DNA from: Nitrospira sp.
GTDB taxonomy: Bacteria; Nitrospirota; Nitrospiria; Nitrospirales; Nitrospiraceae
Assembly: GCA_029865485.1 (NCBI GenBank)
Contig: JAOUGT010000004.1
Coordinates: 1 to 54,736 of the forward strand
Length of the DNA: 54,736 nucleotides
Reading direction: 5' to 3'
Positions 31,234 through 54,736 of the stretch are shown one piece after another. The notes beneath the pieces are model-generated. The model saw only the letters and a program-made list of their open reading frames with translations, ran no database searches and was not told the DNA's origin. Within the stretch, counting starts at the first letter, position 1; each line of letters begins with the position of its first letter. A program made the position numbers and the translations under genes.

Positions 31234-32610
31234 TCAATTACCCGCCACCATCATCTCAGAAATCTTGACTGTCGGGCTGGCAATCCGACCTCGGAATACC
31301 AGATCGTTCCCGACCACGTCGATATCCTTCAGCATATGTTTCAGATTGCCCGCGATGGTAATTTCTTCAACCGGGTAGGCCAGCTCTCCGTTCTCGATCC
31401 AGAACCCGCAGGCTCCCCGAGAGTAATCGCCGGTCACCATATTGATGCCGAACCCGATCAACTCCGTCACAAAGAGGCCTTCTTTAATGGAGCCAATGAT
31501 CTCTTGCTGACTCTTCATACCAGGAACCAGATAAAAGTTGGTTGGCCCCACGGAGGGACTCTCCCCCACACTGCGCGAGGCGCTACCCGTCGAGGGCAAA
31601 CCCAGCTTCTTGCCGGAATAGGTATCAAGCAAATAGCTCTTTAACACCCCTCGTTCGACGATCGTATTCTTGCGTGTTGCCAGCCCCTCACCATCGAATG
31701 GACGTGACCCAAAGCCGCCGACCATACGGCCGTCGTCGTAGATGGTGATCAAATCAGATGCGATCGTCTGGCCCAACTGATCGAGCAGAAACGACGCGCG
31801 CTTATAGAGCCCGTAGCCGGAGACAGCGCTGCATACGTTCGCCAGAAGACTCCCAGCCGTCTCTTGATCGAACACCACCGGCACGCGTTTCGTCGCCACC
31901 TTGCGCGCACCCAATCGACGAATCGCACGACGCGCTGCTTCCTGTCCGATGGATTCAGCCGATGCCAATCGAGCAAACTTGCGCTGGACCTGATACCAGG
32001 CATCCCGCTGCATGCCACCGGTCGCAGACTCGGTCGCAATCGGGGAAACAGAGAGGGAAAAGTTCGAGCTTTTATACGACCCCACGAACCCATGACTATT
32101 CGCCAGCACGACGCGGCCCGATGAGGAATCGAATTCCGCACCTTCGGAATTCGTCACCCGTGGATCGGTCGCAAAGGCCGCCGCCTCTCCGCGCTTCGCC
32201 CAATCGATCTGGGTGTCCGTATCCAGCACCGTGCTATCAAAAAGATCAAGATCCGGCTGCTCCGTGGCCATGTGACCGACCTCCGGCAATCCCGAGACAT
32301 CATCTTCGACCACCGCGCCGGCCAAGGTGCAAGTGTCCGCGACGAGCCGATCGAGAGAGGCCCGGGAGAAATCGGACGTGGACGTTGTGGCGGACCGCTT
32401 CCCGATAAAGACGCGCAAGCCGAGACGTTTCTCTCTCGCCTTGGTGAGCCGGTCAACCGCCCCCACTCGCACCTGAACCGAAAAGGTCTCTCCGTCGGCC
32501 ACGACGATATCCGCTTCAGTCGCCCCGCAGGTCTTGGCCCGAGCCAGCACATCAGCCGCCAGTTGGGCATATCCGTTTGCACTAGTTGGCATGGTCGTTT
32601 TTTCAAGCAT
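31234..32610 (-). CDS. pmbA: TldD/PmbA family metalloprotease component (PmbA-like)
   Basis: PVVFDQETAGSLLANVCSAVSG; STGSASRSVGESPSVGPTNFYLVPG. Confidence 0.88.
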   Translation of the reverse strand: MLEKTTMPTSANGYAQLAADVLARAKTCGATEADIVVADGETFSVQVRVGAVDRLTKAREKRLGLRVFIGKRSATTSTSDFSRASLDRLVADTCTLAGAVVEDDVSGLPEVGHMATEQPDLDLFDSTVLDTDTQIDWAKRGEAAAFATDPRVTNSEGAEFDSSSGRVVLANSHGFVGSYKSSNFSLSVSPIATESATGGMQRDAWYQVQRKFARLASAESIGQEAARRAIRRLGARKVATKRVPVVFDQETAGSLLANVCSAVSGYGLYKRASFLLDQLGQTIASDLITIYDDGRMVGGFGSRPFDGEGLATRKNTIVERGVLKSYLLDTYSGKKLGLPSTGSASRSVGESPSVGPTNFYLVPGMKSQQEIIGSIKEGLFVTELIGFGINMVTGDYSRGACGFWIENGELAYPVEEITIAGNLKHMLKDIDVVGNDLVFRGRIASPTVKISEMMVAGN

Positions 32611-32689
32611 TATGGTCTGTTCTCAGAGGCCATCCATCAACCATATCCTGACCGATTGGAAGATGCGCCATGAGGTGTGAGTCGGCTGG

Positions 32690-34120
32690 TTATCGTTGTG
32701 TACCGCCGACGGTAATTTCGTCCACCTTGATGGTCGGCAGGCCTACCCCGACCGGCACCGATTGACCATCTTTCCCGCAGGTACCGATGCCGTTGTCGAG
32801 TTTGAGATCGTGCCCGACCATCGACACCTTGGTCAGAATTTCCGGGCCATTGCCGATCAGCGTCGCCCCCTTCACCGGTTTGGTAATCTGGCCATCTTCG
32901 ATGAGATAGGCTTCGCTGGCGGAAAACACAAATTTTCCGTTCGTGATATCAACCTGCCCCCCCCCAAACGACACGGCATAGAGGCCCTTCTTGACGGATC
33001 GAATGATGTCGTGGGGATCCGACACACCAGCCAGCATGAACGTATTGGTCATTCGAGGAAGCACCACGCTTTGATAATTCTCGCGCCGTCCGTTCCCAGT
33101 CAAGGGAATCCCCATGAGGCGTGCATTGAGCTTGTCCGTGATATAGCCACGGAGGATACCCTTCTCGATGAGCGTGGTACAGCCGGTCGGGGTACCTTCA
33201 TCATCCATATTCAGAGAACCCCGTCGAAAGGGAATGGTGCCGTCATCCACGATCGTACAGACGTCCGATGCAACCCGTTTGCCGATCAAGCTCGAAAATG
33301 CCGAAGTCTTCTTTCGATTGAAGTCGGCTTCAAGCCCATGGCCGATCGCTTCGTGCAACAAAATCCCGGGCCACCCACCGGCCAACACCACCGGCATCAC
33401 TCCAGCCGGCGCATCAACGGCGGACAGATTCAGAATGGCTTCCCGCGCGGCTTCCCTGGCATAACCCAAATGGCGATTGTCTTCGCGATAATAGGCAAAG
33501 GCGACCCGACCACCACCGCCAAAACTGCCCACTTGGCGATTTTCGCCGTCCTCAGCAATACAGGTGATCTGTAGGCGCGACAACGGCTGGATATCACTGA
33601 CGAGTGTCCCATCCGAGGTCGCCACCACCACGACCTTATATTCCGTATTAAATGAAGCCAGCACGTTCTTAATACGGGGATCATAGCGCCTGGCTTCGGC
33701 GTCAATTTCATTCAAGAGCGCCACGCGTTCGGCTGTCGCGACCTCGGCCTTCGCGCCCTCGATCGGATAGAGATCATGGGTCGGTCGTCGCTGCGTAGGC
33801 ACCGGAACGTTGGAGTGTCCTTTTGGAGAATTGGCGATATACCGAGCAGTATCAGCGGCAATCTCGAGATCCCGCTTTGTCAACTCATCGGAATACGCAA
33901 ACCCCGTCTTTTCCCCCGCAGTGGCTCGGACCCCAACCCCCTGCGACACACTCTTGGCCGCCCGCTTGACGATGCCCTCTTCCATCGAGACCGATTCGGA
34001 CGTACGCGATTCAAAATAGAGGTCCGCATACTCAACATCTCGGACCTTCACTCGATCGAGCGCTTGCTGGGCCTCGATCTCTGTGACACCGAACGTCGTC
34101 AGTTGAACCGGCTCAGGCAT
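32690..34120 (-). CDS. tldD: TldD family metalloprotease
   Basis: GWPGILLHEAIGHGLEADFNRKKTSAFSSLIGKRVASDVCTIVDDGTIP (HExxxH). Confidence 0.94.
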   Translation of the reverse strand: MPEPVQLTTFGVTEIEAQQALDRVKVRDVEYADLYFESRTSESVSMEEGIVKRAAKSVSQGVGVRATAGEKTGFAYSDELTKRDLEIAADTARYIANSPKGHSNVPVPTQRRPTHDLYPIEGAKAEVATAERVALLNEIDAEARRYDPRIKNVLASFNTEYKVVVVATSDGTLVSDIQPLSRLQITCIAEDGENRQVGSFGGGGRVAFAYYREDNRHLGYAREAAREAILNLSAVDAPAGVMPVVLAGGWPGILLHEAIGHGLEADFNRKKTSAFSSLIGKRVASDVCTIVDDGTIPFRRGSLNMDDEGTPTGCTTLIEKGILRGYITDKLNARLMGIPLTGNGRRENYQSVVLPRMTNTFMLAGVSDPHDIIRSVKKGLYAVSFGGGQVDITNGKFVFSASEAYLIEDGQITKPVKGATLIGNGPEILTKVSMVGHDLKLDNGIGTCGKDGQSVPVGVGLPTIKVDEITVGGTQR

Positions 34121-49856: not shown

Positions 49857-50531
49857 ATGGACAAGTTGACTGAGCAAGGTTACCTGATTGTCCCCAATGT
49901 CTTCTCGAAAGAGGAATGTGATCAGCTTCTCGAGGAGTTAGCTAATTGGACAGTCGGTAGAGGCAGAGCTGGGATTCGACACCTCATGAGCTGTCCAGCG
50001 ATCTCATCGTTTGCTCGTGACAAACGCTTGCAAACTATTGCTGCGACGGCACTCATGGAAACTGCCATCCCATACCGCGCTACACTGTTCGAAAAATCCC
50101 AAGAGTCAAACTGGCTAGTAGTATGGCATCAGGACACAGCCCTGCCCTTAGAAAAAAGGTTTACTTCACCAGAGTGGGGGCCCTGGTCGACAAAATCCGG
50201 GATCATGTATGCCCATGCTCCTGCTTGGGCTTTGGAGCGTATCATCACCCTACGGATCCAATTGGATGCATGTGGTCAAGATGACGGCCCTCTGCGCGTT
50301 ATTCCAGGTTCCCACTTAAAAGGAATCCTGTCTGATTCAGATACGCAGCTCATCACCAAACATGAACCTTCCGTGGAGTGCCTCGTTCCGCGAGGAGGAG
50401 TGCTTGTTATGAAACCTCTTATCATCCATGCCTCTTCAAAATCCCATGGAAACACTCCTCGACGTGTGCTGCATATTGAGTATGCACCAGCCTCCGGTAT
50501 TTCCGAAACCGTCCAAATCGCCGTTGCCTAA
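49857..50531 (+). CDS. Phytanoyl-CoA dioxygenase (PhyH) family protein
   Basis: WHQDTALPL; GPLRVIPGSHLKG; LIIHASSKSHGNTPRRVLHIEYAP. Confidence 0.88.
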   Translation: MDKLTEQGYLIVPNVFSKEECDQLLEELANWTVGRGRAGIRHLMSCPAISSFARDKRLQTIAATALMETAIPYRATLFEKSQESNWLVVWHQDTALPLEKRFTSPEWGPWSTKSGIMYAHAPAWALERIITLRIQLDACGQDDGPLRVIPGSHLKGILSDSDTQLITKHEPSVECLVPRGGVLVMKPLIIHASSKSHGNTPRRVLHIEYAPASGISETVQIAVA

Positions 50532-50672: not shown

Positions 50673-50870
50673 ATGACCACTGTAACGGTCTCCCTCTCTG
50701 ATGAAGAAATGCGCCGATTGGAAGAGCTGAGTAAGCGAGAAGGTTTGACTATTGAACAGATGGTCCGACTCGGTATCAATGACTTCATCGGCCAGCCAGA
50801 CGAATCCTTCCGTGCCGCTGCGCGGCGTATCATGGAGAAAAACGCCGAACTCTACCGTCGCCTCTCGTGA
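50673..50870 (+). CDS. Ribbon-helix-helix-like antitoxin
   Basis: MTTVTVSLSDEEMRRLEELSKREGLTIEQMVRLGINDFI; directly upstream of doc remnant. Confidence 0.75.
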   Translation: MTTVTVSLSDEEMRRLEELSKREGLTIEQMVRLGINDFIGQPDESFRAAARRIMEKNAELYRRLS

Positions 50871-51258
50871 TTCGCTATCTTTCCTTAGCTGAGGTTCTCG
50901 CACTCCACAGAGTTGTACTTGATCGCTGGGGTGGTGCGGCTGGGATTTGAGATCTCGGTGCTCTGGAATCTGCATTGGCCCAACCACGCCAGAGTTTTCC
51001 GGACAAGATCTCTATCCCACTCTCACCAGTAAAGCTGCGGCTCTTTGCTTTTCCTTGGTCCTCAATCATCCCTTCATCGACGGAAACAAAAGGATCGGAC
51101 ATGCCGCAATGGAAACTTTCCTGGTCCTCAACGGATATGAACTCGATGCGACCGCCGACGAACAAGAACGAATCATGCTGGATCTAGCGGCGGGAAATCT
51201 TTCTCGGAACATATTTGAAGATTGGATACAACAACACACCAACCAGCCAGCAAAATAG
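50867..51258 (+). pseudogene. Doc (Fic/Doc family) toxin pseudogene: TGA plus frameshift
   Basis: MIRYLSLAEVLALHRVVLDRWGGAAGI*DLGALESALAQPRQSF, then shifted frame GQDLYPTLTSKAAALCFSLVLNHPFIDGNKRIGHAAMETFLVLNGYELDATADEQERIML. Confidence 0.85.
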
Positions 51259-52151: not shown

Positions 52152-52739
52152 CTAGGCCCCCTGCTTTGCCTTGCCGCGCGCAACGAGGGCAACCACCTGC
52201 AGCAGTTTTTCAACTCGGGCCTTGTATTGATTCATGAATTGAGCCGTCCACATTGTGTTGTATTCGATGGCCGCACTCTTCTTCATCCCGGCATCTTTTT
52301 CTCCGACCGGAGAGGAGTAGTGCGCGATCAGACGATCCAGTTCCTCTTCGCCGAAATTTCTCGAATAGGCCTGTTTCAGGTGATCATGGAGGGTTTCCAT
52401 CCTCCCCATGGACTGTCGAATATCTTTCAGGAAGGCCTCAAGCAGCCGTTCTATCTCCTTCTTGGTCTCACCTGACACGTTGGGGTAGCTGGCTGCGATG
52501 GACTTTCGGATTTGTTGCTCGTATTCGCTGACGTATTTCTGCGTGAGGGACTCGTATTCTGACTCCAGTTCCGAAACTCGGATCAGGGTCAGCAACCTCT
52601 CAATCTTGATGGACTTGGAATTCTCGATCGTGGCCGCGCTTGCAGCAGTCCCAGCAACCCCCAACGTCATGCCACAGAAGCATCCAAGTAAAGCAACCTG
52701 TGCAATGCTGCCAAGATGTCGTCTCTCCCGGTCGCGCAT
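52152..52739 (-). CDS. Exported DUF2059-like protein
   Basis: Signal peptide and RNFGEEELDRLIAHYSSPVGEKDAGMKKSAAI. Confidence 0.72.
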   Translation of the reverse strand: MRDRERRHLGSIAQVALLGCFCGMTLGVAGTAASAATIENSKSIKIERLLTLIRVSELESEYESLTQKYVSEYEQQIRKSIAASYPNVSGETKKEIERLLEAFLKDIRQSMGRMETLHDHLKQAYSRNFGEEELDRLIAHYSSPVGEKDAGMKKSAAIEYNTMWTAQFMNQYKARVEKLLQVVALVARGKAKQGA

Positions 52740-52802
52740 GGTCTCACCTCTTGCGACCGAGTCTACTCCGATTGGATTGATCGTCAAGAAATTGAGCGCC
52801 TT

Positions 52803-54374
52803 CTACGACCTGACGTCACTCGCGCGAATCGGTCCATAGGTGTGGCGTGCTCGCTGAAGTTCCTTGATATGCCGGCGCAACGCAGGGCCAAATGAGGATC
52901 GTTCCACCTCTGGACGAAACCGCTCACTCATTCGCGCGACATGAGTCATGGCCTCAGCCAACTCCTGCACGAGTGTGCGACCAGGGCCGGTCAGCCACCC
53001 TAACTGTTCATCGGCATACTGCAGATCGAGCAAAGAATACCGGACCGATTCCACTTCTTCCACACAACGGAAGCGCGCGCGCTGTAGGTCTCGCTGGGAA
53101 AGCCCGGCTTGCTTCCATCTCACTGATCCGTTACGCCCCGCCCCCCATGAGGCAAGATGCTGGAAGAGCAGCGCACCCATAGTAAAGGTGAAGGTCGCGT
53201 GAAGGATGCCCCGCAAGGGCCGAAGACTTCGTCTCCATGGAGAGTAGAAAATCTGCTGATTGTGGTCCCCACGATACATGACGTTCTTGCGCAGCAAGAG
53301 ATTCAAATGATGATGACTGTTCTCGTGAATGAGGTCATCAATCAGATCGAGATTGTCACGATCGAAACAATTGATAAACGACAGACCCGGTCGATGCCGA
53401 TAGCTGAAGCTGACCACACCCTTTGCATGAAGCGGGATGATGCGATTGGTCAACAGTGCCAGCACCTCATGACCATCAGGCCAGGCAAGTCGAATCGTCT
53501 CCCACGCACGAGTGATGCGTTCAACCTGGCGCCGATCAGTGGGCACGACCCTTCTCGGCTGGCGATCCTTCCCATAGACCAGCGTTGGACCAACGGTGAC
53601 GGGGCCAGCCTTGCCTTGGACCGCGATCACAGGAGAGTAGTATGCCCAATGCCATTGCCCAGTCTTCTCCTGAGCGGACCAGACCGGTGACACCATTCGA
53701 CCGACCCTCATCTTGATGCCGCGAGAATCGATTCGAAAGACCACAGCCCCCGACGCCTGTGACACGGCCTTTCGCACATCATGCGAGGCCTGACACCAGG
53801 CTCCAGCAATCCCCGTGGAGACAGTGCCGGGAGGTTCCGCCTTTTCAAAATTGTCCTTAAGATGGCCTGGTACATCCCATCGCTGCATCTTCTGCTGTTG
53901 CATCCAGGTGACCGACACCCCCGGATCAAACCAGAGCGCCTCCTGCATCAGTTCCCCTGCCAATCGTCGGCAGAGCCCAAACACCCGCCTTTCCAGACCA
54001 CGAGCTTGCGGACGTCCGCTTGGGAAGAGGTCATCGAAGTAGCCATGTTCGAAAAACTTCTCCTGACACTCAGCAAAGAACTGCGCGGTAAACTCCCGCC
54101 GATCCTGCTCCATTTTGAGCTGTCGGCACACATCAAGAAGGTACAAGAGATCATTCAGCGTCTCGATCCAGCCAACAACTTTCCAGGTGGAATAGGACTC
54201 CAGGGGGAAGACTGAACGGAGACGGTCAAAGAAACCGACTGGAAGTCTCAACTCCTGAGTTAGATCAACATAGTCAATGCGCAGTTCCCGACAGAGATCA
54301 GCATGAAGTCGACGCATCGAGAGGCGAAATTCATGCTGCAATTTGACGAGTGGATGTAGATCAAGCAAGGGCAT
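52803..54374 (-). CDS. HExxH-motif protein resembling RiPP-associated peptide-modification (putative aKG-HExxH beta-hydroxylase) proteins
   Basis: DLIDDLIHENSHHHLNLLL at 53307-53327 region, followed by QIFYSPWRRSLRPLRGILHATFTFTMGALLFQHLA. Confidence 0.72.
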   Translation of the reverse strand: MPLLDLHPLVKLQHEFRLSMRRLHADLCRELRIDYVDLTQELRLPVGFFDRLRSVFPLESYSTWKVVGWIETLNDLLYLLDVCRQLKMEQDRREFTAQFFAECQEKFFEHGYFDDLFPSGRPQARGLERRVFGLCRRLAGELMQEALWFDPGVSVTWMQQQKMQRWDVPGHLKDNFEKAEPPGTVSTGIAGAWCQASHDVRKAVSQASGAVVFRIDSRGIKMRVGRMVSPVWSAQEKTGQWHWAYYSPVIAVQGKAGPVTVGPTLVYGKDRQPRRVVPTDRRQVERITRAWETIRLAWPDGHEVLALLTNRIIPLHAKGVVSFSYRHRPGLSFINCFDRDNLDLIDDLIHENSHHHLNLLLRKNVMYRGDHNQQIFYSPWRRSLRPLRGILHATFTFTMGALLFQHLASWGAGRNGSVRWKQAGLSQRDLQRARFRCVEEVESVRYSLLDLQYADEQLGWLTGPGRTLVQELAEAMTHVARMSERFRPEVERSSFGPALRRHIKELQRARHTYGPIRASDVRS

Positions 54375-54491
54375 GTTGCAACGGCTACACTAATCTGGAC
54401 GGGACTCTAGCGCAGCAGACCAGTCCGTGCAAGGACGAAGACTGACTGCCTGGATATTCTCCCTCCCACGCTCTAACATAGACCTGCCATG

Positions 54492-54661
54492 CAGGCTGTT
54501 GAGAAAGCCCGCCAGCGGCGTTCTCGCATCGCTCAGAGGCTCAACGTACGGCCTGGGGAAATGCCTGTTCATACAGGCGATGGGTGGGCCGGGTGAAAAC
54601 AGTCGACGATTCGCCTCTTCGCTCGCTGCGGCCTTGCCGGACGGCCTTTCTGAACAGCCTG
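54492..54661. mobile_element. MITE/REP-like palindromic element, about 170 bp
   Basis: Terminal inverted repeats CAGGCTGTTGAGAAAGCC (54492-54509) and GGCCTTTCTGAACAGCCTG (54643-54661), with weaker internal complementarity. Confidence 0.7.
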
Positions 54662-54736
54662 GAGGCCACTGTGCTTCCGTTGGTGATCTCCAATGCTGTA
54701 CGTTTTCAGCATCGTGAATGTATTCGTCAACACACT

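Follow-up and report, generated by a model that had tools for sequence, protein, structure and literature searches.

A stand-alone gene of the aKG-HExxH family (positions 52803–54374, minus strand, 523 amino acids) lies in the analyzed stretch of DNA, a whole contig of 54,736 nucleotides referred to here as the window, from a Nitrospira genome that is 3.5 Mb in length and 86% complete. It is a working, vertically inherited, and near-universal core gene of the host's family, which we take to be Nitrospiraceae. We estimate a probability of roughly 55% that its product is an Fe(II)/aKG hydroxylase belonging to the core gene set of the lineage, with a substrate in trans that is either a cellular protein or a peptide encoded elsewhere. 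A narrower version of this reading, put forward more tentatively, is that the enzyme has no part in RiPP biosynthesis and serves the host's family as a housekeeping hydroxylase that modifies a conserved cellular protein. Known aKG-HExxH enzymes hold iron via HExxH and act on RiPP precursors, where they beta-hydroxylate His, Asp, Phe, Gln, or Pro; some cut the backbone oxidatively (PMC12636437, PMC13060819).

The earlier note had placed the product in the mod_HExxH/aKG-HExxH families and had named a missing HMM match as grounds for dropping that assignment. The predicted protein scored 73.2 and 75.7 bits against TIGR04267 (aKG-HExxH-type peptide beta-hydroxylase), for which the curated cut-off is 40 bits. 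The matched mod_HExxH domain covers residues 288–423 (53106–53513, minus strand) and NCBIfam profile positions 2–142 of 177. Among all solved structures, the best match of the protein is ChlH (8s5f, E = 3.9e-10), which is also matched by the family profile (E = 8e-12), and the alignment spans HExxH and a SPWR..LRP..G.LHA.F.FT block; the second-best match is 22nu, a radical-SAM/HExxH entry (E about 0.01). The protein had no match in Pfam, PADLOC, or PHROGs, and 23 orthologues searched against Pfam gave no consistent match, with a weak, low-complexity-like match in six. A structure model built from the single sequence had a mean pLDDT of 38, too low to be usable. Membership of the aKG-HExxH family, as opposed to that of an unrelated zinc protease, is supported at the level of profiles and alignments. 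A zincin-class metalloprotease is nonetheless a rival to consider: the zincin motif is itself HExxH, a zincin-like fold is reported for ChlH, and PflC hydrolyzes a leaderless substrate (PMC12636437). We regard it as very unlikely, given that none of the 23 orthologues matched a Pfam peptidase family and that the SPWR..RP..G block has the aKG-HExxH pattern.

The open reading frame encodes HENSHHH and, as described in the earlier note, a second block about 25 residues further on; the extra histidine and the long N-terminal region that it had pointed out are both conserved in relatives. In the 523-residue product, HENSHHH occupies residues 350–356 (53307–53327, minus strand) and is accompanied by SPWRRSLRPLRGILHATFTF. 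The motif is present in 40 of 41 homologous loci, with HEDSHHH in the remaining one. The second block, YSPWRRSLRPLRGILHATFTF, spans residues 377–397 (53184–53246, minus strand) and aligns with the ChlH block SPWREDLRPPSGLLHAIFVFT. Residues P379, R385, P386, and G389 are invariant across all aligned TIGR04267 copies, and H350, E351, and H354 are invariant in RiPP-type copies as well; together with S322 and S324, these are the residues that the core gene and the RiPP-type copies have in common. H392 is not universal and is therefore unlikely to be a third metal ligand. The N-terminal region (residues 1–287; 53514–54374, minus strand) has no Pfam match and is conserved within the host's family, while matches outside the family are confined to the catalytic block. 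This region is a candidate substrate-recognition part. Compared with close relatives, dN/dS is 0.014–0.036 (where calculable) across residues 317–405 and 0.14–0.24 in the N- and C-terminal regions. The catalytic core is under extreme constraint.

A draw across the phylum yielded orthologues with 50–80% identity in 77 of 79 host-family genomes, and in a draw across the class 120 of 123 host-family genomes had a TIGR04267 match. The gene is normally present in one copy per genome in the host's family; the rest of the phylum produced weak matches that are limited to the catalytic block. Three absences were inspected. In one genome (G362), the contig stops where the gene ought to start, and in another (G181), the full NFACT neighbor is missing as well, so an assembly gap is likely. 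The third (G197) retains the flanking genes with the enzyme gene gone and is a real loss, the only clear one of the three. Pairwise protein distances for the enzyme correlate with those for the adjacent NFACT gene (r = 0.93) and for two other neighbors (r = 0.79 and 0.88). A mobile origin was considered and rejected, with no match in plasmids or phages and none confirmed in viral contigs.

An NFACT/RqcH-like gene is positioned divergently upstream of the enzyme gene in 34 of 41 loci, with gene starts approximately 190–220 bp apart in the closest relatives. This arrangement raises the alternative that the function is tied to the NFACT/RqcH gene and to ribosome quality control. We consider such a tie highly improbable: the early-branching loci L063–L067 have different upstream genes, and NFACT does not adjoin the enzyme gene that they retain, so the association looks like inherited gene order. 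In some of these early-branching loci, the upstream genes were assigned by eye, one to a metallo-beta-lactamase-fold protein and one to a DUF151-like protein. A promoter-like element, TTGCAC-N17-TAGAGT, is located 29 nt before the ATG (54404–54432, minus strand) and occupies the same position in many relatives, and close relatives share with the window the conserved form TTGCRC-N16-18-TAGAGT immediately ahead of the gene. A stricter promoter scan did not report the TTGCAC-N17-TAGAGT element. Based on its conservation upstream of the gene, the enzyme gene probably has its own promoter.

Downstream, 15 nt away on the same strand, is a gene for a DUF2059 protein (52152–52787, minus strand); a neighbor of this type occurs in only 12 of 41 loci and is therefore regarded as context. 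Several other features of the window were recorded. A PhyH-type Fe(II)/aKG oxygenase of 224 amino acids (49857–50531, plus strand) lies about 2.3 kb from the enzyme gene and is outside the set of conserved neighbors. At 50673–51258 (plus strand), genes for a ribbon-helix-helix protein and, after it, a death-on-curing (Doc/Fic) protein likely form a toxin-antitoxin pair. At 31234–34120 (minus strand), there is a PmbA/TldE homolog (31234–32610) with an adjoining open reading frame that may be TldD. PmbA/TldE-TldD-type proteases mature some RiPPs. Between the enzyme gene and the contig end is a dispersed repeat (54491–54661) made of paired units of approximately 60 bp, which is context and not part of the gene. 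Because this repeat has 64 matches in the genome and occupies that stretch, it is the likely reason for the contig end.

The earlier note had reported no radical SAM enzyme or precursor to the left of the gene in the window, which we confirmed, and had offered two options: a stand-alone branch, or half of a RiPP cluster that continues past position 54736. The former is supported; the latter is not, as the 41 loci are without RiPP genes. The window stops just past the 64-match repeat, and in the corresponding region of relatives the divergent NFACT/RqcH-like gene comes first, followed either by the three genes for a response regulator, a 2OG-Fe(II) oxygenase, and an RRM protein or by genes of the FtsX/HlyD type. 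Of the 41 loci, 17 have a 2OG-Fe(II) oxygenase gene (PF13661; L037:18515–19177, minus strand) in the vicinity of the NFACT/HExxH genes. No partner maturase or peptide transporter occurs among the annotated recurrent neighbors in the 41 loci, and ABC-2 membrane protein or FtsX/HlyD genes are located farther upstream in subsets of loci. The small open reading frames that recur near the gene comprise members of a CxxC zinc-ribbon-like paralogue family, antitoxin-like frames, and antisense frames. A 70-residue CxxC protein upstream in 19 loci was examined as a candidate precursor and rejected, as each genome has 2–16 zinc-ribbon-like paralogues of which it is one, and as it is absent or decayed (L036) in loci that keep the enzyme. 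Members of this CxxC family (L051:7671–7886, plus strand, and paralogues) have approximately 65–90 amino acids, two CxxC pairs, and no Pfam match.

A RiPP enzyme of a split cluster, with its precursor and partners elsewhere in the genome, is the alternative that we take most seriously, although we judge it to be unlikely. The characterized relatives in the cited literature all act on RiPP precursors (PMC12636437, PMC13060819, PMC12257519), core status by itself may be compatible with a conserved peptide product from a precursor elsewhere, and a core MNIO-superfamily protein of approximately 505 amino acids (PF05114, 60 bits; L092:9262–10779, plus strand, also L092–L110 and G000:C102:11688–13163) is encoded in the same genomes. 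The latter is nearly universal in the host's family and also occurs in neighboring families; its His/Glu/Asp positions are conserved in a metal-ligand-like pattern, and in L092, its gene and that of a dihydrouridine synthase overlap by 4 bp in an operon-like arrangement. MNIO and aKG-HExxH enzymes are known to co-occur in RiPP clusters (PMC12636437, PMC13060819). Against a split cluster, there is no conserved precursor-like small open reading frame within 2.5 kb of the gene in 41 loci, no FxsB-type maturase over the cut-off in 61 host-family genomes, and no NHLP leader in a search that ran without a positive control. Nor is the MNIO-like gene a strict partner, as it is present without the HExxH gene in genomes of three families (f2, f3, and f5) and absent from a genome that has the HExxH gene (G239). 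Co-occurrence therefore does not support a core pathway in which the MNIO-like protein is the second enzyme, and, with MNIO-like genes in genomes that have no HExxH gene, no link is claimed.

Other TIGR04267 copies examined in the class have a different context. All six (L072–L077) have a radical-SAM gene no more than two genes away; HMM matches identified four of these genes, and sequence resemblance to L074 the other two (L075 and L076). Two of these neighbors (L074 and L077) are cyclophane maturases of the YhhB type (NF041707, 495 and 498 bits, cut-off 445) that adjoin the HExxH gene or are one gene off; in L072, a radical-SAM/SPASM-like gene overlaps the HExxH gene, and in L073, a radical-SAM-like gene is two genes away. 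The catalytic positions of these copies are invariant and the same as in the core gene, but identity to the window protein is 16%–22%, the copies are patchy in occurrence, and the N-terminal parts are shorter or unrelated. Their context fits RiPP enzymes, whereas the core gene is without such partners. ChlH likewise shares HExxH and the SPWR..LRP..G.LHA.F.FT block with the window protein, but has 368 amino acids and acts on a cyclophane-bearing precursor in a RiPP pathway that includes a radical SAM enzyme, compared to 523 amino acids, no cluster, and a family-specific N-terminal region for the window protein. PflC/PosC, BpmH, and PesO are from the same family (IPR026337/TIGR04267) and from MNIO-containing RiPP clusters, where they hydroxylate Gln, Pro, and other residues; their genes are beside precursor and MNIO genes (PMC12636437, PMC13060819), in contrast to the window gene, which has no such neighbors.

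Since neither a precursor nor a partner is encoded in cis, and given its core status, the enzyme probably targets a cellular protein or a peptide encoded in trans. Alternatively, the enzyme might hydroxylate or oxidize a small molecule or lipid, a metabolic function that would also fit core status and the lack of a peptide partner. We consider that role unlikely, since the characterized family members in the cited literature all modify peptides and the conserved block is common to the peptide hydroxylase ChlH. Under the preferred reading of a hydroxylase acting in trans, homology predicts that the window protein binds Fe(II) and aKG and that its hydroxylation substrate is a peptide or protein. 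Its fold would be ChlH-like and zincin-related; from the alignment, both histidines of HENSH would hold Fe(II), and the SPWRRSLRP block may contribute to the shape of the aKG/substrate site. Substrate recognition would fall to the family-specific N-terminal region, and the side chain that is beta-hydroxylated in trans would belong to a cellular protein or to a peptide from another locus in the genome. The uL16 oxygenase YcfD is a cupin/JmjC oxygenase and not a member of the HExxH family. It would be a functional analog in that it is an Fe/aKG hydroxylase that works alone on a cellular protein (PMC5862935). We found no description of such a core aKG-HExxH copy in the open-access literature.

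Characterized aKG-HExxH enzymes in the cited open-access literature otherwise belong to RiPP pathways. A near-universal member outside of any cluster and under extreme constraint suggests a conserved cellular job for this family, and makes testable the question of which protein of these bacteria bears the hydroxyl group.
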